From the NCBI RefSeq assembly GCF_009569385.1, contig NZ_WBOF01000001.1, positions 5,651,501 through 5,715,500 on the forward strand: a DNA stretch of 64,000 nt. The letters are read 5' to 3'. The position numbers were made by a program, and so were the translations under genes. Shown one piece after another: positions 8,579 to 38,755 of this stretch (its first letter is position 1; each line of letters opens with the position of its first letter). The notes below the pieces were generated by a model. It was not told the DNA's origin, did not search any database, and saw only the letters and a list, made by a program, of their open reading frames with translations. Origin of the DNA: Streptomyces kaniharaensis. GTDB taxonomy: Bacteria; Actinomycetota; Actinomycetes; Streptomycetales; Streptomycetaceae.

Positions 8579-10405
<1,827 letters not shown>

Positions 10406-10422
10406 CCCGCTCTGCGCCAGCG

Positions 10423-10455
10423 GGGGCCCGGCTGCCGTGCGGCCAGCCGGGCCCC
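10423..10455 (+). terminator. Terminator of the glmS operon
   Basis: A 12-bp perfect stem (10423-10434 with 10444-10455) encloses a 9-nt loop 18 bp after the glmS stop codon. Confidence 0.75.
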
Positions 10456-10528
10456 GCCTCGCGTTGCGCTACCCAGGCGGCGGGGGCCTGGACGGGCACG
10501 CCACTCATGGGCCTGCTCTCGGCTGCTC

Positions 10529-11581
10529 CTACTCCGCGACCAGCACCGCGACGCCCGTCACCCGGTCCGCGGCGAGATCCGCGAGTGCCACGTCCGCCTG
10601 CCGCAGGGGGTAGCGGCGCACATGCACCGCCGGGCGGGTCCGGGCCGCCTCCGCCAGATACGCCCGTCCGTCGGCCCGCGTGTTGGCCGTGACGCTGCGC
10701 AGCGTGCGTTCCTGGAAGAGGTGCCGCTGGTAGTCGAGCGCCGGGACGTCGCTGAGGTGGATGCCGGCCACCGCGAGCGTGCCGCCGCGGTCCAGGGCCG
10801 CCAGGGCGACCGGCACCAGTTCACCGACGGGGGCGAAAAGGATGGCGGCGTCCAGCGGTTCCGGGGGCGGGTCGTACGAATCCCCGGCGAAGCCGGCGCC
10901 CAGCTCCAGCGCCAGCCGCCGGGCCGACGCACCACGGGTGAACACGGCCACGCGCGCGCCCCGGGCGAGGGCGGCCTGGGCGGTCAGGTGCGCGGACGCG
11001 CCGAAGCCGTAGATGCCCAGGAGCCCGCCCGCGGGCAGGTCGGCTCGCTCCAGGGCCCGGTAGCCGATGATCCCGGCGCACAGCAGCGGGGCGAGTTCCT
11101 CGGCGGGTGGGCCCTCGGGCAGCCGGTAGGCGAAACGGGCGTCCGCGACCACGTGGCCGGCGTAGCCGCCGTGCCGGTCCCAGCCTGTGTAGCGCGAATC
11201 CGGGCAGAGGTTCTCCCGCCCGCTCCGGCAGTAGCTGCAACTGCCGCAGGTCTGCGCCAGCCAGGCCACCCCGGCCCGGTCCCCGACGGCGAAGTTCCCG
11301 GCGGCCGAGCCGACAGCCGCACCGACCGCGCGCACGCGCCCGACCACCTCGTGCCCCGGCGTGCACCTCGGCACCCTGGGGACGAGGTCCCCCTCCGCCA
11401 GGTGCAGGTCCGTTCGGCACACCCCACACGCCTCCACCTCCACCAGGATCTCCTGCGGCCCCGGCTCGGACAGCGACCGCCGTTCCCATACCAACGGCCC
11501 CGAGCCCGCCGTGCCGACCGGACCCGGATGCGCCACCACCCACCCCTCGGTCTCCCCTGGTACCCGCCGCGTCGTGGTCAT
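10529..11581 (-). CDS. Zinc-dependent alcohol dehydrogenase (MDR superfamily)
   Basis: The 350-aa medium-chain dehydrogenase/reductase carries catalytic-zinc ligands Cys55 and His77 (GHEVV context), a structural-zinc loop with four Cys (112, 115, 118 and 126), and a Rossmann domain entered at [11 protein letters not shown]. In that loop a Gly-Ala-Ser replaces the more usual GxGGxG. This combination resembles AdhA-type alcohol dehydrogenases that oxidise primary alcohols or reduce aldehydes with NAD(P). Start ATG 11581 has GGAGG 6 nt upstream. It stands alone between the glmS terminator and an empty stretch; substrate is not predictable. Confidence 0.88.
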
Positions 11582-11925
11582 CGCCGCCTCCTGTCCGCAG
11601 GACGCAAAGTCGCTCCTTCAGCCTGCGCCCGAGGTGGCTCCGCCGCCCACACACCCCCGAAGTGCGCCGTTCATCAACTACACGGTGCTCGCGGGGCCGT
11701 TCTCGCTGACCGTGGGCTGACGCCTCCCGCCCCTCGGGCGGCCGACCGGCGGCTCCGCACTTCCTGTGGGTAGGTGGGGCCGCCGCGCTGCCCGTGCGGC
11801 GCCCGGGCCATTTCAACCTGACCGGCTTCATCGACTCCCAGGCATGACCGGGCCCTGGGCCGACCGCCGTCCCGGGCCGGATCCGGCATGGTCCCGGCTT
11901 CCGGGCCGGCTGACGCGGGACACCC
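11582..11925. other. Intergenic stretch without a supported gene
   Basis: These 344 bp hold the promoter region of the alcohol dehydrogenase. Short GC-rich inverted repeats lie near 11836-11911 and could end transcription of the leftward lipoprotein gene at 11926. Open frames here have no ribosome sites and no recognisable similarity. Confidence 0.4.
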
Positions 11926-13017
11926 TTACGAGTCGCGCGCCCACCACTTCCGCAGCACGTCCTCCGCCGGCTTCCCGTGGGGTGTGTACGCGAGGTTCTT
12001 CGCCGTCTCGCCGCTGTCGGGCCAGTCGTCCCACATCCACCAGCAGACGCCGGCCCACCAGGGCTTGCCGTCGAAGGAGGCGAGCAACGCCTCGTAGGCG
12101 GCGGCCTGTTCGGTCTTGCCGTCGCCGTCGCTCTTGCTGATGCTCCAGGAGTACGGGGCGGTGGTCGTGCCGCGCTGGCTGACGTAGCCGGCCTCGGTGA
12201 AGAGGATCTTCCGGTGCTGGCGCTCGGAGAAGGCGGCGAGCTCGGCGGCGATGGGCTGCCACGCCTGGCGCAGCCGTGCCGGGTCGGTCGTCGCCTGGTC
12301 GGCCAGCGGCCAGTACGCGTCGATGCCGATGACGTCGAGGTCCTGCCAGAAGGGGATCTTCTGGTACTCGTCGTAGTTGGCGGCGTACGTCAGCTTCCCC
12401 TTGTACCGGTCCCGGATCGCGGCGATGACCTTGCTCCAGTGCTCGCCGTCCTGCGAGGTGCCCGCGAGTTCGGTGCCGACCGAGAGCTGCTCGACGCCGT
12501 TGTCGGCGGCGAGTTGGGCGTAGTGGGTGATGAAGCGTTCGTAGGCCGCGAACCAGGCGTCCCGGTCCTTGGGCTTGATCTCGGCCCGGTCGCCGCCCTT
12601 CACCAGGTCGACGTGGGGCTTGATCATGGTCTTGAGCCCCGCGTCGTGGGCGAGGCGGATGATGCTGCGCAGGCTGTCGTCGGAGGCGGTCTCCTTGGTG
12701 GTGCGCATGTCCGAGTCGGTGACGCGGTCCTGGTACCACGTGGGGGTGAAGGTCACCCACCGGGCGCCGGTGGCGGCGATCTGCCGCAGGTACGTTCCGG
12801 CCTGCGGGCTGTCGTAGTCGTGGGTGTTCCACGAGGGGAGCGTCATGCCCCGGAACTCGCCCGCGTTCCCGTCGTCGGGTCGGGTGCTCGGACCGCTGGC
12901 CGAGGGACTGGGCTGCGGCGTGTCCTCTTCGTCGCCGCCGGACGAGGAGCATCCGGCGCCGACGAAGAGGACGACCAGCGCCGACCAGGCCGCGGCCATC
13001 CTCTTCATCGGGTTCAC
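11926..13017 (-). CDS. Lipoprotein with TIM-barrel glycoside hydrolase domain (GH113-like)
   Basis: The 363-aa protein has a lipobox ending at Cys23 (LFVGAGC), a Ser/Pro/Asp-rich spacer to about residue 52, and then a (beta/alpha)8 domain. Candidate catalytic acids are Glu183 in SVGTELAG (end of strand 4) and Glu275 in LFTEAGY (end of strand 7), the clan GH-A layout; the closest family I can name is GH113 beta-mannanase-like. As a surface lipoprotein it could trim or hydrolyse an exported polysaccharide. It is 30 bp downstream of the DUF2334 gene and almost certainly shares its transcript. Its place opposite a polysaccharide synthase operon suggests a self-polymer substrate; this is inference. 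Confidence 0.8.
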   Translation of the reverse strand: MNPMKRMAAAWSALVVLFVGAGCSSSGGDEEDTPQPSPSASGPSTRPDDGNAGEFRGMTLPSWNTHDYDSPQAGTYLRQIAATGARWVTFTPTWYQDRVTDSDMRTTKETASDDSLRSIIRLAHDAGLKTMIKPHVDLVKGGDRAEIKPKDRDAWFAAYERFITHYAQLAADNGVEQLSVGTELAGTSQDGEHWSKVIAAIRDRYKGKLTYAANYDEYQKIPFWQDLDVIGIDAYWPLADQATTDPARLRQAWQPIAAELAAFSERQHRKILFTEAGYVSQRGTTTAPYSWSISKSDGDGKTEQAAAYEALLASFDGKPWWAGVCWWMWDDWPDSGETAKNLAYTPHGKPAEDVLRKWWARDS

Positions 13018-29690: not shown

Positions 29691-30380
29691 TCAGGCGGCG
29701 GGTCGGGTCTCCGGGAGAGCGGGGAGGTCGGCGACGCTGTCCAGTACGTAGGTGTGGGGGTGGGCCTCGAAGGCGGCGCGGGTGAGCTCGCCGGTCAGGA
29801 CGCCGACGACCACGCCGGCTCCGGCGTTGCTGCCGGCCTCCACGTCGACGACGGTGTCGCCGGCGGTCAGGACGCGGCGGGTGTCGATGACGCCGGTCTT
29901 CTCCATCGCCCGGTGGATCATGTGCGGGGCGGGGCGCCCGCGCGGGACCTCGTCCGAGGTGACGACCGCGTCCAGGTTGCCGCCCTCGCCGGCCGACCAG
30001 CCGAGCGAGTCCAGCAGCGGGTACGCGACGTCGGCGCTGAAGCCGGTGGTGAGCGCGACCTTGATGCCGCGCCCGCGCAGCTCGGCGAGGGCGGCCTCCA
30101 CGCCGGCTATGGCCTGCGGCGGCGTGGCCCGGTAGGCCTCGCGCAGGAACACGGCGAAGGCCTCGTAGCTCTCCTCGACCAGCTCCGGCGTCGGAGTGCC
30201 GCCGCCCAGGCGGACCAGGGCGGTGATGGCCTCGCGCTTGTCGGTGCCCATCCAGGTCTGGAGGTCGGCCTCGGCCACCGGCACCCCGGTCCGTTCGACG
30301 GCGGTGCGCAGCGCCCGGTAGACGGCGCCGCTCTCGTTGATGGTGGTGCCGGCCATGTCCAGTGCGGCGAGCTCGATCAC
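29691..30380 (-). CDS. HAD hydrolase, phosphonatase-like (PhnX-like, TIGR03351 type)
   Basis: This 229-aa HAD-superfamily enzyme has nucleophile motif DMAGTT (Asp8), a cap region with MGTDKREAI, motif II TTGF and motif IV AGDTVVDVEAG. The Ala in DMAGTT is characteristic of the phosphonatase-like branch that cleaves the C-P bond of phosphonoacetaldehyde-like substrates, releasing phosphate. Known PhnX enzymes use a cap-domain Lys for a Schiff base; a candidate is Lys48 of TDKREA, unverified. It is 4 bp downstream of the GntR regulator in the same operon and opposite the FAD oxidase, the recurring synteny of this family. Confidence 0.82.
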   Translation of the reverse strand: MIELAALDMAGTTINESGAVYRALRTAVERTGVPVAEADLQTWMGTDKREAITALVRLGGGTPTPELVEESYEAFAVFLREAYRATPPQAIAGVEAALAELRGRGIKVALTTGFSADVAYPLLDSLGWSAGEGGNLDAVVTSDEVPRGRPAPHMIHRAMEKTGVIDTRRVLTAGDTVVDVEAGSNAGAGVVVGVLTGELTRAAFEAHPHTYVLDSVADLPALPETRPAA

Positions 30381-30384
30381 GGTG

Positions 30385-31146
30385 TCAGTCCTCTTCGGTG
30401 CGGTAGCGGCCGATGACGGTACGGCCTTCGATGGTGTTCTCGATGGTGAACGTGGCCATGGCGGGCAGGTAGCGGTCGTCCGCGTCCTCCAGCGGCTCGC
30501 CGCGGCTCGACGTGGTCAGCCGTCGTACGCGCAGCAGCGGGCCACCGACGGCGACCCGCAGGAGCTCGGCGTCGTACGGCTGGGCGGCGACGGCGTCGAT
30601 GGTGTGCCTGGCGTGGTGCAGGTCGACGTCGCGGCGCAGCAGCTCCTCGTAGACGGAGCCGGTGTCCGGGTCGAAGTCGAACAGGTAGCGGCCGACCTCG
30701 TGGACGAAGGTGGAGCGCTCCAGCATGGCCGGGACGCCGTCCAGCAGTCGCAGCCGGACGAGTTCGACGACCGGTGCCCCCTCGGCGAGGCCGAGCCGGG
30801 CGGCGGCCTCCGGGGAGGCCCGACGGCGGGCCACCTCGATGGTCGTCTGCCCGGGCTCGCGGCCGATGGTGCGGGCCCACTGGGTGAAGGACAGGAACGT
30901 GGCGAACGGCTGCGAGGGAGTCGCACGGTGGGCCACCGGCGGCTTGCCGCGCCCGCCGACGAGGCTGCCCTCGCGGCGCAGCATGGCCAGGGCCTGGCGG
31001 ACCGGGCCGCGCGAGATGCCGAACTCGGCGCACAGCTGCGACTCGCTGGGTACCGGCCGCCCCTCGGGCCACTCGCCGGACTCGATCCGGCGCAGGAACT
31101 CGGCGCCGAGCCGTTGGTGGAGCGGAGCGTCCTCACTTGTCTTCAC
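30385..31146 (-). CDS. GntR-family regulator (HutC/UTRA subfamily)
   Basis: The 253-aa protein has an N-terminal winged helix (LHQRLGAEFLRRIESGEWPEG, then PSESQLCAEFGISRGPVRQALAMLRREGSL) and a C-terminal UTRA ligand-binding domain with the LVRLRLLDGVPAMLERSTFV core. UTRA ligands are small organic molecules, here probably a phosphonate or its breakdown product. Start GTG 31146 is preceded only by a weak GGAG and a CATAGT -10-like box, so the mRNA may be nearly leaderless. It is cotranscribed with the phosphonatase-like gene and divergent from the FAD oxidase. Confidence 0.88.
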   Translation of the reverse strand: MKTSEDAPLHQRLGAEFLRRIESGEWPEGRPVPSESQLCAEFGISRGPVRQALAMLRREGSLVGGRGKPPVAHRATPSQPFATFLSFTQWARTIGREPGQTTIEVARRRASPEAAARLGLAEGAPVVELVRLRLLDGVPAMLERSTFVHEVGRYLFDFDPDTGSVYEELLRRDVDLHHARHTIDAVAAQPYDAELLRVAVGGPLLRVRRLTTSSRGEPLEDADDRYLPAMATFTIENTIEGRTVIGRYRTEED

Positions 31147-31277
31147 AAGATGACTATGGCACTCCGGGGTGCCGGTTCTCAAAGCCGGGGTCGCCGGGCA
31201 AAGCCCCTGGACAGGCGGGGTGTCGGCCGGGAGAACCCGCTGCTCCCGGTGGCCGTCGCATAGATGAACACCCGGCG

Positions 31278-31293
31278 ACTTGTACATACAGGT
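31278..31293. promoter_or_regulatory. Probable GntR operator
   Basis: A 16-bp imperfect palindrome ACTTGTA-CA-TACAGGT (one mismatch between arms) lies 38 bp upstream of the FAD oxidase start and resembles HutC-subfamily operators with TGTA/TACA halves. Confidence 0.5.
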
Positions 31294-31330
31294 CTTGACG
31301 TCGGCGTCGCAGAGCCCGGAATCTGGAGCC

Positions 31331-32518
31331 ATGAGCAGCAGCACCACACCTTCAACCGCCCCCGCCGTCTCCCGTCCGCTCACGCCCGGTCGTAGCGACG
31401 TGGTGATCGTCGGCGCCGGCATCATCGGCCTGGCCCACGCCTTCGAGGCGCTCGCCGACGGGCTGTCCGTCACCGTCGTCGAGCGCGACCGGCAGCCGGT
31501 CGGCGCCTCGGTCCGCAACTTCGGTCACTGCTGCATCAGCGCCCAGGAGGGCGAACTGCTCGCCCTCGCCCAGCGCTCCCGGGGCGGCTGGCTGCGGGCC
31601 GCCGAGGCGGCCGGGCTGTGGGCCCGGGAAGCCGGCACGCTGGTGGTGGCCCGGTCGGCGACCGAGGCCGCCGTCTTGGAGGAACTGCGCGCCGAGCGCG
31701 GCGGCGACGCGGTCGAGCTGCGCACCGCCGCGCAGATGGCGACGGCGCTCGGCCGGGCGGACGGCGACGACCGCGACCTGGTGGGCGGCGCGTTCCTGCC
31801 CGCCGACCTGCGGGTGAACCCGCGCGAGGCGGCGCCCGCCCTGGCCCGCTGGGTGGCCGAGCAGTCGAACGGGCGCATCCTGTGGGGCACCGCCGTCACC
31901 GGCATCGAGCCCGGTACCGTGCACACCACCCGCGGCCCCGTCCACGGTGAGCGGATCCTGGTCTGTGTCGGCCACGACGTGGACTACCTGTTCCCCGACA
32001 TCGCCGAGGACCACGAGATCCAGCGCTGCCGGCTCACCATGGCGCGGGCCGCTGCGCCCGCCGCGTTCCACACGGACTCCGCAGTGCTGACGGCCACTTC
32101 GATGCTGCGCTACGACGCCTTCACCGCCCGCCCGTCGGCCGCCCGGCTGCGGGAGGAGGTCATCGGGCACAGCCCGGAGCTGCTGGAGATCGGCGCCAAC
32201 GTGATGTTCACCCGGCTGCCGGACGGCACGGTGCTCGTCGGCGACTCGCACCACTACGACGCCACCACGCCGCCGTTCATCGACGAGCGCACGTTCGAGC
32301 TGCTGACCGCCGCCGTCGCCGACGTGCTCGGGGTCCGGCAACTTCAGGTGCTCGAACGCTGGCAGGGGGTCTACGCCAGCAGCAGCCGGGGTCCGCTGCT
32401 GGTCCGCGACCTGGCGCCGGGGGTCCGGGCCATCTCGGTCACCTCGGGCATCGGCATGACGCTCTCCTTCGGTCTCGCCGCGGCCACCTTCGACGGGACC
32501 CTCGCCGCCACCGGCTGA
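31331..32518 (+). CDS. FAD-dependent oxidoreductase, aminophosphonate type (TIGR03364-like)
   Basis: The 395-aa D-amino-acid-oxidase-fold flavoprotein has a Rossmann motif VIVGAGIIGLAHA near residue 25, ERDRQPVGASVRNFGHC (FAD-binding and the conserved RNFG block), and a C-terminal SVTSGIGMTLSFGLA closing the FAD site. The family with RNFGH is known from synteny with phosphonatase-like HAD proteins and is proposed to oxidatively deaminate an aminophosphonate related to 2-aminoethylphosphonate. ATG 31331 has GGAG upstream. It is divergent from the gntR-phnX-like operon, and together they form a compact catabolic cassette. No phosphonate transporter is nearby. Confidence 0.87.
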   Translation: MSSSTTPSTAPAVSRPLTPGRSDVVIVGAGIIGLAHAFEALADGLSVTVVERDRQPVGASVRNFGHCCISAQEGELLALAQRSRGGWLRAAEAAGLWAREAGTLVVARSATEAAVLEELRAERGGDAVELRTAAQMATALGRADGDDRDLVGGAFLPADLRVNPREAAPALARWVAEQSNGRILWGTAVTGIEPGTVHTTRGPVHGERILVCVGHDVDYLFPDIAEDHEIQRCRLTMARAAAPAAFHTDSAVLTATSMLRYDAFTARPSAARLREEVIGHSPELLEIGANVMFTRLPDGTVLVGDSHHYDATTPPFIDERTFELLTAAVADVLGVRQLQVLERWQGVYASSSRGPLLVRDLAPGVRAISVTSGIGMTLSFGLAAATFDGTLAATG

Positions 32519-32693: not shown

Positions 32694-33275
32694 CTACCGG
32701 CCCGGCCCAGCCGCCGCGCGCCGCTCCGCCTCGTGCCTGACCGCTGCCAGCGACGCGGCGACGGTCGCCTCCCAGCGCGGGGTCACCACGCTGCCCCACC
32801 AATCGCCCAGCGCCCACAGATCGGTGCCGAGTTCGCCGGTGTACACCAGCCGCGTACCTGGCCCGGGCCCGTGCTCGGTGAGCTCGAAGGACTCGGTGAC
32901 CGCGGGGACGGGGCCTCGCACCAGGCGGAAGTCGACCCGCTCGGGGCGGGTGAACCTCACCGTCTCCACGGTCGTCGCCGTCAGCCGCCCGCCCGCCACA
33001 GGGGTGTGGTGCGCGGCGAGCACCATGTCGCCGCCCCGCTCCAGCACGGACACCTTCTCCCGCGTCGCTCGCGTGGCCCGCCCGAGATAGGGCTGGGCGA
33101 TCACCTCGAAGACCACCTCGCGGGGTGCGGCGATGTCGACAGTCTGCGGCCCGAGCGGACGTGTCCGCCGGCCCACTCCGAGGTCCAGCGGCAGCGCGCC
33201 GGTGACCACGCCCAGACCCACGGCCGCCGCGGCGCCCGCCGCCCCGACGGCCGTCAATGCGCCAACCCGTGCCAT
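32694..33275 (-). CDS. SRPBCC-superfamily protein with N-terminal membrane segment
   Basis: The 193-aa protein has an Ala/Gly-rich hydrophobic stretch (about 5-28), which could anchor it or act as a signal, followed by an SRPBCC (START/Bet v 1-like) domain with the opening VDIAAPREVVFEVI and the final helix in which ATVAASLAAVRHEAE packs over the cavity. Such domains bind hydrophobic ligands. ATG 33275 was chosen because GGGAAGG lies upstream; a GTG at 33308 would add 11 residues. The gene is isolated, and the ligand is unknown. Confidence 0.75.
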   Translation of the reverse strand: MARVGALTAVGAAGAAAAVGLGVVTGALPLDLGVGRRTRPLGPQTVDIAAPREVVFEVIAQPYLGRATRATREKVSVLERGGDMVLAAHHTPVAGGRLTATTVETVRFTRPERVDFRLVRGPVPAVTESFELTEHGPGPGTRLVYTGELGTDLWALGDWWGSVVTPRWEATVAASLAAVRHEAERRAAAGPGR

Positions 33276-33480
33276 GCGCGCGCCCTTCCCGCTCAGCCTG
33301 CCCGTCACGTCTCAGTCACGTCTCACCGAGAGGCTACGGCGGACGCCGCCGGGGGACCGGTGAGCGCGCCGACCTGGCCGTCCGGTCTCGGTCGTGAGCG
33401 GTTGCGGCGTCCGGCTCGCCGGCCGGATGCCGCAAACCGCGAGCCCGGGTCGTGGCTGCGATCCAGAGGGGGGATGCGTG

Positions 33481-35122: not shown

Positions 35123-36079
35123 ATGCGCACCACCACCCGTTCGACCTCTCGCCGCCGTGCCGTCCTGGCCGCGGCCGCGACCGCCGCTCTCGCCCTGTCC
35201 CTCGCCGCCTGCGGCTCGTCCGGGCACTCCGGCATGCCCGGCATGGACCACGGCGCCATGACCACGTCCGCCGCCGCGACCGCCGGCACCACCCCCTCCG
35301 GTCCGGCGTCCGCGAGCGGCATGGACGGCATGCCCGGTATGCCCGGCATGGACAAGGCGGCGGCCGGCGACGGCCTCGCGCCCGAGAAGGACGGCTACCG
35401 CCTCGACCCGAAGACCGACAACCCGACCGCCGGTCAGGCCGCCGGCTACGCGTTCGTGATCACCGGCCCCGACGGCAAGCCGGTCACGGACTTCGCCGTC
35501 GACCAGACCAAGAAGCTCCACTTCTACGCCGTCCGTACCGACCTCACCGGCTACCAGCACCTCCACCCCGCCATGGCCGCCGACGGCACCTGGACCGCCG
35601 ACCTGGCCGCCCTCACCCCCGGCACCTGGCGGCTGTACACCTCCTTCACCCCCAACGCCGGAAGCGGCAAGGGCACCGACTTCGTGCTCAGCCGTACCGT
35701 CACCGTCCCCGGCGACGCCACCACCACCCCGCTGCCGCCCGCCTCGACCACGGCGACCGTCGACGGCTACACCGTCACCGTCCAGGGCGAACCGATGGCG
35801 GGCATGGCCCACCCGCTCACCGTGACCTTCGCCAAGGACGGGCAGCCCGTCACCGACCTCCAGCCCTACCTCGACACCTACGCCCACGTCAGCGCCTTCC
35901 ACGAGGGCGACCAGGCCTTCGCCCACTTCCACCCCCAGGCCACCGCAGGCGGCGACCACGGCGGCCCGAACCTGACCTTCCACGCCGAGCTCCCCAAGCC
36001 CGGCAACTGGCGGGTCTTCCTCCAGTTCCAGACCGCCGGGCAGCTCCACACCGCCGCCCTGACCCTGCACGTGAACTGA
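35123..36079 (+). CDS. Met/His-rich secreted lipoprotein, putative copper-binding
   Basis: The 318-aa protein has a twin-arginine-like N-terminus (SRRRAV), a lipobox ending LAAC near residue 30, then a flexible tract with repeated MPGM/MDHGAM modules (about 38-78) typical of soft-metal sites, and two beta-sandwich domains carrying HLHPAM and FAHFHP clusters. Met-x-Met and His-Pro clusters of this kind bind Cu(I)/Cu(II) in periplasmic copper proteins. It is cotranscribed with the DUF6153 gene behind a CsoR-type operator and closed by a very strong terminator. The function is likely copper buffering or delivery outside the membrane. Confidence 0.78.
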   Translation: MRTTTRSTSRRRAVLAAAATAALALSLAACGSSGHSGMPGMDHGAMTTSAAATAGTTPSGPASASGMDGMPGMPGMDKAAAGDGLAPEKDGYRLDPKTDNPTAGQAAGYAFVITGPDGKPVTDFAVDQTKKLHFYAVRTDLTGYQHLHPAMAADGTWTADLAALTPGTWRLYTSFTPNAGSGKGTDFVLSRTVTVPGDATTTPLPPASTTATVDGYTVTVQGEPMAGMAHPLTVTFAKDGQPVTDLQPYLDTYAHVSAFHEGDQAFAHFHPQATAGGDHGGPNLTFHAELPKPGNWRVFLQFQTAGQLHTAALTLHVN

Positions 36080-36362: not shown

Positions 36363-37157
36363 TCAGGCGGGGCGGGACTTCTCGGCGACGAGGAGGGCGT
36401 AGCCGAGCGTGCCGTCGGCGATGGCGGCGCGGGCGGTGGCCAGCGTGGAACGGGTGGCATCCGGGGTGAAGCCTGCCGTGGTGACGTAGTCGGGAAGGGC
36501 CATGCGCAGGACGGTGATTCGGGCCTCGACCTGGTCGGCCATGCGGGTCAGCGCGGCGTCGTGGCGTTCGGTGCGGACGGTGCGCAGGCCGGCGGCGGCC
36601 AGCGTGGCGGCGTACTCGTCGAGGGGCCGTGCGTCGGCGATGCAGGCGAACCTGGCGGCGAGGGTGGTGAGTTCGGGCGGGAGCCGGTCGGGGTCGGCGG
36701 TGACATCGGTGAGGCCGACCCGGCCGCCGGCGTGCAGGACGCGCGCGAACTCCATGGCCGCTGCCGCCTTGTCGGGGAAGGTGCACAGGGCGCACTCGCA
36801 CACGACGGCGTCGAAGCTCCCGTCCGGGTAGGGGAGTTGCTCGGCGTCGCCGGTGGTGAAGGTGGCCCGCTCGGCCAACTGGGCTGCCTCTGCCGCGGTA
36901 TTGGCATGGGCGGTGTTGGCGGGGGAGTAGTCGAGGCCGTCCACGCGTGCGCCGTACGCGTCGGCGAGCAGCAGTGCGGTGGTGCCGCGGCCGGAGGCGA
37001 CGTCCAGCACGCGGGTTCCGGGGGTGAGCCCGAGGGCGTCGGCGAGGTGCCGGGTGAGTGCCGTGCCGCCGGGGTGGTAGGAGTCGCCGAGGAGCAGGGC
37101 GACCGCGTCGGAGGAGTAGAAGCCGGCGCAACAGGCCTTCAGGTTATCGGAGTTCAC
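36363..37157 (-). CDS. Class I SAM methyltransferase with ArsM-like cysteines
   Basis: The 264-aa Rossmann methyltransferase has motif I LDVASGRGTTALL (51-63), acidic loop GLDYSPAN, and motif post-II DGSFDAVVCECALCTFPDK. Cysteines at 9, 10, 120, 122, 125 and 172 stand out. Cys122 and Cys172 fall where arsenite methyltransferases place their arsenic-binding cysteines, but the rest differs from bona fide ArsM, so a thiol- or metal(loid)-linked substrate is only a possibility. The start GTG at 37157 overlaps the stop of the radical SAM gene (GTGA), meaning tight coupling. The two probably act sequentially on one substrate. Confidence 0.82.
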   Translation of the reverse strand: MNSDNLKACCAGFYSSDAVALLLGDSYHPGGTALTRHLADALGLTPGTRVLDVASGRGTTALLLADAYGARVDGLDYSPANTAHANTAAEAAQLAERATFTTGDAEQLPYPDGSFDAVVCECALCTFPDKAAAAMEFARVLHAGGRVGLTDVTADPDRLPPELTTLAARFACIADARPLDEYAATLAAAGLRTVRTERHDAALTRMADQVEARITVLRMALPDYVTTAGFTPDATRSTLATARAAIADGTLGYALLVAEKSRPA

Positions 37158-38755
37158 TTCCGCCTCCGCGAGCCGTACGGGGTGTCGATGAGCTGGTCCT
37201 GGAGGGGGAGCGCGTTGGGAACGACGTCGGCGACCGGGACGCCGGACATCTGTGCGCGGACCTGCTCGCGGTAGCCGACGGAGTTGTAGGCGCAGAACGG
37301 GATGAGGCGCCCGTCGGGGGTGATCTCCTCGACGCAGCACTTCATCAGCTGCTTGACGTTGAGGGTGTACGGGTCCTGGAAGTCCTGGACCACGATCATG
37401 AACGCCTTGTCCTTGAGGTTCTTCAGCACGGCGGGCAGGTCGACGCCGCAGGCTCCACCGACCTCCGTGCGGGAGGTGTCCCCGCCGCAGTCGAACGCCT
37501 CGGCGGCGGCCCGCAGCCTGGCCTCGGTCGTGGCCGTGCCCATGAACGCGGAGGCCGACCAGAGCCGCTCCAGCGCCTCGCGGATCGACGTGTCCGGCAG
37601 GGCCCGGTTGGCGACGTAGTCGAGGTAGTTCTCCATGTCGACCAGCCGCGGCAGCGGGACGACCGAGCGGTTGCCGGGCTCGCCGTCGGTGAACAGGTAC
37701 GTGATGGAGCGGCAGCTGGGGAAACAGCAAGGGACCGGAAAGAAGTCCTCTCGCCGTAGCCAGTACGGAAGTTGATCGACCATCAGCTTGATGACGTCCG
37801 GGTTGGTGAGCCGGTTCAGCGGGTCGAAAGGGAGGTGTCGGCCGGAGTGGGTGACCGGCTGGAGGACGACGGCGCGGACGGCCGGGTGATCGACGCCGAA
37901 CTCGACGATCCGGCCGACCTCGTGCTCGTTCAGCCCGCGCTCGACTGCCGCCGCGAGGCTCACGTACAGGCCCTCCGCCGCGCAGTTGTCCAGCGCCTGC
38001 TGCTTGAACGTCCGCAGGTCTCGGCCGCGGATCTCCAGGTGGGTGCGCGAGTCGAAGCCGTCGAACTGGAGGTAGACGGGGAGGGTCCTGCCCGACTCCC
38101 GGTTTCGGCGGCCGAGTTCGGCGACGAAGCGCCGGTCGGTGGCGAGGCGGATGCCGTTGGTGTTCAGGACGATGTTGCGGATCGGGCGGGCGAGGGCGAG
38201 GTCGATGAAGTCCAGGATGTGCTTGTGGATGGTGGGTTCACCGCCGGAGAACATCACCACCTCCGCCTCGCCCTCGCTCTCGACGAAGGCGTCCAGCATC
38301 CTCTCGCACTGCTCGTGGGTGATGGCGTAGCCTCCCCCGGGCCCCGTCCCGGGGGAGCCCCAGGTCTGATGGCCGGAGTCGGCGAAGCAGATCGGGCAGT
38401 CCAGGTTGCAGCCGGTGTTGACCTCGACGATGCCGAGGCAGGCGTGCTGCTTGTGCTCCGGGCAGAGGCCGCAGTCGAGCGGGCAGCCGTCGCGTACCTC
38501 GGTCTGGAAGGCGAGCGGGATGGTACCGGGCTTGTTGAAGCGGGAGGAAGCCAGGTACTCCTCGGCGTCCCCGTACACCAGGGCCTCGAACCCGCCGTGC
38601 TCGGGGCAGCGTTTGCGCAGGTAGACCTTGTTTTCGCGGAGGTTGACCTGGGCGTCGACGGGCCTCTTGCAGACCGGGCAGATCGACTTGGTGAACTCCG
38701 CGAACACCTCGTCCCGGTCCTGCTTCACGCGCGGTGTGCGGTTCTCCTCGGTCAT
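37154..38755 (-). CDS. Radical SAM enzyme of the Tes/MJ0619-like family
   Basis: The 533-aa protein has an N-terminal zinc-ribbon-like segment (Cys26, Cys29, Cys50 in SICPVC and RCPEHG), then CPLDCGLCPEHKQHAC (91-106), then the radical SAM triad CNLDCPIC (Cys116, 120, 123) and GGEPT for SAM binding. C-terminal cysteines in PVPCCFPSC and KCCVEE probably hold auxiliary clusters. This combination is shared with the archaeal tetraether synthase Tes and MJ0619 (methanopterin methylation); those enzymes make C-C bonds at unactivated carbons. ATG 38755 with TGGAG upstream was chosen. It is coupled to the methyltransferase and divergent from a flavin reductase that might supply electrons. Confidence 0.85.
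   Translation of the reverse strand: MTEENRTPRVKQDRDEVFAEFTKSICPVCKRPVDAQVNLRENKVYLRKRCPEHGGFEALVYGDAEEYLASSRFNKPGTIPLAFQTEVRDGCPLDCGLCPEHKQHACLGIVEVNTGCNLDCPICFADSGHQTWGSPGTGPGGGYAITHEQCERMLDAFVESEGEAEVVMFSGGEPTIHKHILDFIDLALARPIRNIVLNTNGIRLATDRRFVAELGRRNRESGRTLPVYLQFDGFDSRTHLEIRGRDLRTFKQQALDNCAAEGLYVSLAAAVERGLNEHEVGRIVEFGVDHPAVRAVVLQPVTHSGRHLPFDPLNRLTNPDVIKLMVDQLPYWLRREDFFPVPCCFPSCRSITYLFTDGEPGNRSVVPLPRLVDMENYLDYVANRALPDTSIREALERLWSASAFMGTATTEARLRAAAEAFDCGGDTSRTEVGGACGVDLPAVLKNLKDKAFMIVVQDFQDPYTLNVKQLMKCCVEEITPDGRLIPFCAYNSVGYREQVRAQMSGVPVADVVPNALPLQDQLIDTPYGSRRRK

Follow-up and report, generated by a model that had tools for sequence, protein, structure and literature searches.

What is made by the products of two overlapping genes in the 8.77 Mb genome of Streptomyces kaniharaensis? 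The window, by which we mean the whole stretch of 64,000 nucleotides that was analysed, contains on its minus strand a gene for a radical SAM (rSAM) enzyme (P0001, 37154-38755, 533 amino acids) similar to both tetraether synthase (Tes) and TrsS and placed in a clade of its own by its translation, Pfam and NCBIfam matches, AF2 model and tree position. The same strand carries, directly downstream, a gene for a class I SAM-dependent methyltransferase (MT) of the DVU_1556/ArsM-like type (P0002, 36363-37157, 264 amino acids). The GTG start of the MT shares its bases with the TGA stop of the rSAM gene (GTGA), as a preliminary description of this DNA had noticed, and the two genes had been regarded there as a coupled unit of actinobacteria that may C-alkylate and methylate a lipid, a cofactor or a metalloid compound.

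The coupling was found well beyond this genome. In 82 of 95 related loci the MT lies directly downstream of the rSAM gene and on the same strand, with a 4-base overlap as the commonest junction (48 of these 82). Among the 13 remaining loci, four (L056, L066, L097 and L115) end at a contig end or at the edge of the fetched stretch, and two (L048 and L062) have the MT and the rSAM in one reading frame. The Mycobacterium gastri locus (L062, 9911-12307) codes for an in-frame rSAM-MT fusion of 798 amino acids with a short linker, present in a single assembly. Locus L048 (Streptomyces sp. AV19, 9557-12334) was discarded as a second fusion because the 3' end of its rSAM gene is frameshifted, by a sequencing error or by decay. 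The pair occurs in Actinomycetota, Chloroflexota and Acidobacteriota, and therefore the restriction to actinobacteria was too narrow. A scan of named genomes, which provided 80 loci, located the closest homologues in Streptomyces; its actinobacterial loci belong to this genus and to Pseudonocardia, Micromonospora, Salinispora, Nocardia, Mycobacterium and others, and the remaining ones to Chloroflexota (Ktedonobacteria, SAR202 and Dehalococcoidia), Acidobacteriota and one Methylomirabilota bin. Within the host genus the rSAM gene was present in 4 of 70 genomes, a patchy occurrence that suits an accessory trait, and a sample of the phylum gave rSAM matches (E 1e-40) in 19 of 396 genomes, roughly half of which hold distant relatives. 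A chance pairing is ruled out by the conservation over three phyla together with the M. gastri fusion, and the pairing at 82 of 95 loci combined with MT cysteines that are 97-100% conserved (n = 82) makes an observation far beyond chance. The pair is real and old, and the early reading, which was to be given up if the pair proved not to be conserved in other genomes, has survived that comparison. The co-occurrence, the overlap and the fusion are strong evidence that both enzymes serve a single pathway.

All the cysteine blocks described beforehand are present in the rSAM enzyme, coded on the minus strand. An HMPTM-type zinc ribbon occupies the N-terminus (residues 20-61, with C26, C29, C50 and H53; 38573-38698), matches PF23545 (Zn_ribbon_HMPTM, E 5.2e-18, 64.8 bits for a cut-off of 27) and is also kept in Tes. 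It is followed by CPLDCGLC (residues 91-98; 38462-38485), an auxiliary cluster motif common to Tes according to the alignment with this enzyme, and by the CxxxCxxC motif of radical SAM proteins in the form CNLDCPIC (residues 116-123; 38387-38410), recognized in the translation and by Pfam (Radical_SAM domain, E 7e-19). The alignment with Tes also delimited the late cysteine-rich segments, PCCFPSC (residues 342-348; 37712-37732), of which Tes lacks C343 and C344, and a C-terminal CC...C (C473, C474 and C488; 37292-37339) that Tes shares. In a single-sequence search the sole PDB relative was the Tes of Methanocaldococcus jannaschii (E 3e-73). Structure prediction, which had been suggested as a check, gave an AF2 model (pLDDT 88, pTM 0.91) that follows Tes along its whole length (PDB 7TOM, Z 40, 434 residues aligned, 2.5 A, 34% identity), with MoaA as the runner-up at Z 18. 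The Tes/MJ0619-like architecture proposed at the outset is thus upheld by the fold and by the ribbon.

P0001 shares with Tes (GDGT-MAS, PDB 7TOL and 7TOM) the fold, the Zn/rubredoxin-like ribbon, CPxDCGLC, CxxxCxxC and the C-terminal cysteines, but it differs in a score that stays short of the cut-off of the Tes model (NF045702, 295.8 bits versus 450), in four additional invariant cysteines (C106, C343, C344 and C423), in the co-translated MT and in its bacterial host. The best NCBIfam match was TrsS (NF045646, residues 22-492), but also under the cut-off (315.4 bits versus 490). For other clade members the Tes model gives 303-366 bits and the TrsS model 313-351, and the preferred model varies by member. 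TIGR04167 (ArsS) was absent among the 23 NCBIfam matches of P0001 at E <= 0.001. In a tree with Tes as the root, P0001 falls in a 70-member clade (support 0.99), nearly all of it MT-linked. Because the enzyme falls below both the Tes and the TrsS cut-offs and has four invariant cysteines that are absent in Tes, we consider that it belongs to a separate clade, in which the extra cysteines possibly serve as ligands of one more cluster or in substrate binding. A distinct but related rSAM clade was found in mycobacteria-like and other genomes (L016-L021, L024 and L118); its proteins mostly have long N-terminal extensions (570-720 amino acids), CPxDCGLC is missing in the tabulated members, and Lgt-family genes adjoin in several of the loci.

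For the MT, the top family was the uncharacterised DVU_1556 (NF045667, residues 27-259), with 143.6 bits for a cut-off of 155, and the second was ArsM (NF008823), with 86.2 bits, far under its cut-off of 263. Both models were matched by all 46 MT relatives scanned, and P0002 is the best ArsM match in its own genome, though under the cut-off. Our literature search found no paper on DVU_1556. Four cysteines are nearly invariant among the MTs of the pair (n = 82). C9 (97%) and C10 (100%) form an N-terminal Cys-Cys (37128-37133, minus strand), C122 (100%) is part of an ECALC block together with C120 and C125 (36783-36800, minus strand), and C172 (36642-36644, minus strand) is kept in 81 of the 82 proteins (98%). 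A profile alignment assigns C122 and C172 to the columns that hold the first and the second arsenic-binding core cysteine in 10 out of 10 ArsM proteins, at least nine of which score above the curated cut-off. The match that had been claimed for these two residues holds, and the N-terminal CC, which had been noticed as well, resembles the N-terminal cysteine pair of ArsM in a region that is not confidently alignable. None of the 11 other class I methyltransferases of the same genome has a cysteine in the C122 column; the C172 column is reached by only two of them, neither with cysteine. P0002 shares with ArsM the class I fold as well, but has HPGG in place of the LGCGNP motif and aligns poorly in its C-terminal part. 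The nearest folds to its AF2 model (pLDDT 95), among the best 50 listed, were AtmM, MitM and phosphoethanolamine and cyclopropane methyltransferases; ArsM was absent from these 50, which says nothing on a difference in fold, and the matches of the predicted structure do not decide the substrate.

Next to the pair and divergent from it, as the preliminary description had it, there is an FAD-dependent pyridine-nucleotide disulfide reductase (P0003, 39014-40372, plus strand), MerA/LpdA-like by NCBIfam and a probable partner. Its identification as MerA itself was ruled out, with a score under the cut-off of the MerA model (TIGR02053, 307.7 bits versus 454; the protein is below all curated cut-offs) and a C-terminus (...EEALRRWH) without CC. 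Two recurrent neighbours of uncertain relevance are also found in the window on the minus strand, a DUF427 protein (PF04248, 40391-40690), present at 26 of the 95 loci and only in actinobacteria, and an SRPBCC protein (Polyketide_cyc2, 'lipid transport', 32694-33308), present at 25. Downstream of the MT and on the opposite strand, a secreted Met/His-rich protein (HSGMPGMDHGAM, 35123-36079) had zero matches in Pfam or NCBIfam and is possibly copper-binding. A phosphonate-type gene group (29691-32518), which comprises a phosphonatase-like hydrolase (TIGR03351) and a TIGR03364 FAD oxidoreductase, both above cut-off, and a GntR-family regulator, lies beside the pair and is apparently unrelated to it.

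The neighbouring genes at the 95 loci were predicted by a crude script based on ORFs and GC pattern and not by a trained gene finder, so that the numbers are approximate, and since the loci overlap in taxonomy they are counts and not independent events. With this in mind, the neighbours of redox or possibly metal-related type were the flavin disulfide reductase (about 40 loci), TlpA (26), MauE (23), CcdA (17), DUF3179 (14) and DF-family proteins and a small CC-motif membrane protein (12 each). A CRP-type regulator (27), MerR (14) and ArsR (8) were tallied besides DUF427 and SRPBCC, and the lipid-type genes were CDP-alcohol phosphatidyltransferase (about 20), PlsY (7, in Dehalococcoidia) and Lgt (6). 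Background copy counts, made via family searches, gave for eight genomes 3-8 copies each of the reductase dimerisation domain, and in six of the eight one copy was no more than 10 kb away from the rSAM. DUF3179 has a single copy in the genomes of L044, L059, L061, L075, L088 and L102, at a distance of up to about 10 kb from the pair. Both associations exceed the genome background. In the Chloroflexota genome of L068 (G479) there are six DUF3179 genes, three of them with an in-frame TGA and possibly coding for selenoproteins. A membrane protein of about 130 amino acids with the motif GILCCVGPTxLALLG lies a few kb from the pair in L043, L044, L050, L053, L055, L058, L061 and others; it is reminiscent of mercury transporters, a MerT-like label given by eye for a protein with zero Pfam matches.

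We tentatively favour, at rather less than even probability, a pathway of two steps, a bond from carbon being formed by the rSAM and a trivalent element held by thiolates being methylated by the ArsM-like MT, possibly with a lipid as the acceptor. At the CNLDCPIC cluster SAM would be split to yield a 5'-deoxyadenosyl radical, a carbon radical would then be generated on an organic acceptor, and the acceptor would be coupled with the help of the auxiliary Fe-S sites and of C106, C343, C344 and C423. In the co-translated MT, the cysteines C9-C10, C122 and C172 would hold a trivalent thiol-loving metalloid, for which arsenic is the best guess and another soft element is possible, during SAM-dependent methylation. 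The product might contain a carbon-metalloid bond and be methylated, with a lipid chain as a possible acceptor, and the thiols would be kept reduced by the flavin disulfide reductase and, in other genomes, by TlpA/CcdA. The pairing, the overlap, the fusion, the fold and the position and conservation of the cysteines were observed directly; the element, the acceptor, the order of the steps and the product are inferred. The metalloid enters this proposal because invariant MT cysteines sit at the columns of the ArsM ones and the paralogues show no such match, because the neighbours are of redox or possibly metal-related type (reductase, TlpA, CcdA, MauE, DUF3179, DF-family proteins and the small CC-motif membrane protein), and because pairs of ArsM with an rSAM enzyme have a published precedent, ArsM-ArsS (arsenosugar) and ArsL-ArsM (arsinothricin) being makers of C-As compounds (PMC8552651). 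As in those systems, an rSAM and an ArsM-type MT come together, from adjacent genes in the case of ArsL-ArsM, and the logic of a C-As bond plus methylation might by analogy be alike. ArsL is however described with a single cluster (PMC8552651), and the rSAM studied here is of the Tes lineage and has several conserved cysteine sites.

Several observations count against a metalloid. ArsR was near only 8 of the 95 loci, and the top neighbour tallies contained no recurrent ars family, be it of transporters, of reductases or of regulators. The absence of LGCGNP, the low ArsM score (86 versus 263 bits) and the closeness of the MT fold, among the best 50 matches, to natural-product, phosphoethanolamine and cyclopropane methyltransferases rather than to ArsM point in the same direction. 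The MT cysteines could bind Zn or an Fe-S cluster instead, or be structural, and the Tes fold and the lipid-gene neighbours favour lipid chemistry. Only slightly less probable than the favoured pathway is that the pair carries out a lipid modification free of metalloid, in which the rSAM would couple or alkylate hydrocarbon chains like Tes and the MT would methylate the lipid or its head group, to give for example membrane-spanning or branched lipids. No structure other than Tes matches the rSAM over its whole length (Z 40, against 18 for the runner-up), CmaA1/UmaA are also close to the MT fold, and bacterial Tes homologues have been proposed for brGDGTs (Zeng et al. 2022, PMC8941075). The recurrent phosphatidyltransferase, SRPBCC and PlsY genes agree with this possibility, and so does an Lgt-family gene that adjoins the rSAM, or is one gene away, in the MT-less clade members L077, L098 and L103 and in L118 from outside the clade. 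L116 (1978-5349) has two more distantly related rSAM copies about 0.5 kb apart, inside what was read by eye as an apparent fatty-acid-type operon (ACP, ketosynthase and reductases). A purely lipid role, however, gives no reason for the invariance of precisely the ArsM cysteines or for the redox neighbours, and the four invariant rSAM cysteines missing from Tes and the patchy occurrence inside one genus also count against it.

The wider rSAM family therefore leans to lipids, given the Lgt genes next to MT-less members and the operon of L116, and the partner MT leans to a metalloid. The favoured pathway makes use of both tendencies. Its boldest version, which we regard as unlikely, is the missing machinery for an arsenolipid (or another soft-element lipid), with the Tes-like enzyme joining a lipid carbon to the trivalent metalloid and the ArsM-like one methylating it. 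If true, (dimethyl)metalloid-capped lipids would be expected in soil Streptomyces, Ktedonobacteria, SAR202 and Acidobacteria. Our literature search on arsenolipid biosynthesis turned up nothing useful.

It is similarly improbable that the pair is an aerobic, non-selenoprotein counterpart of TrsS and the DVU_1556 MT, with a shared role in selenium- or redox-linked chemistry. TrsS is said to come from a paper by Haft and Tolstoy of 2025, and our literature search did not find its function. These two families are the top matches of the two enzymes, DVU_1556 was found in every MT scanned, and relatives of the DF-family (seleno)proteins are near the pair at 12 loci. However, both scores are under the cut-offs, and the Tes and TrsS models score nearly equally for the clade, with several members preferring Tes. 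No in-frame stop (TGA) was found in the gene of P0001 or in its genome matches, and thus the selenocysteine that many TrsS members carry is lacking; forms of TrsS without it may exist. The TrsS-like protein of a coriobacterium (L023) has no adjoining MT and possesses only C343 of the extra cysteines, without C106, C344 and C423. Moreover, this assignment names a kinship and not a product. Least probable of all is the modification of a small aromatic cofactor in the manner of MJ0619, C-methylated by the rSAM and given another methyl by the MT, which would agree with the HMPTM-family ribbon (PF23545, a likeness to this pterin methylase by family profile) and with a class I methyltransferase as the partner, but pterin or other cofactor genes were not recurrent in the top tallies of the 95 loci, the whole-length fold match is Tes, and the ArsM cysteines would stay unexplained.

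Whichever the product, the pair is a conserved and easily expressed two-gene unit in culturable bacteria that has no known product, and it brings together two rich fields of chemistry, the coupling of lipids by radicals and the methylation of metalloids. It also concerns the sources of brGDGTs, since bacterial 'Tes homologues' are taken as the candidate genes for these palaeothermometer lipids (PMC8941075, PMC11868695). Zeng et al. (2022) collected 456 of them with limits of E < 1e-50 and identity > 20% (PMC8941075), and many were found in Chloroflexota in a Black Sea survey (PMC11868695). Such limits would probably take in the rSAM-MT clade, because M. jannaschii Tes, the one compared here, matches P0001 at E 3e-73. 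The pair thus cautions against counting every bacterial 'Tes homologue' as a brGDGT synthase. If the clade makes another product, the assignments of brGDGT sources would need to be separated, for which the MT partner gene together with the C106/PCCxPxC/C423 signature can serve as a filter.
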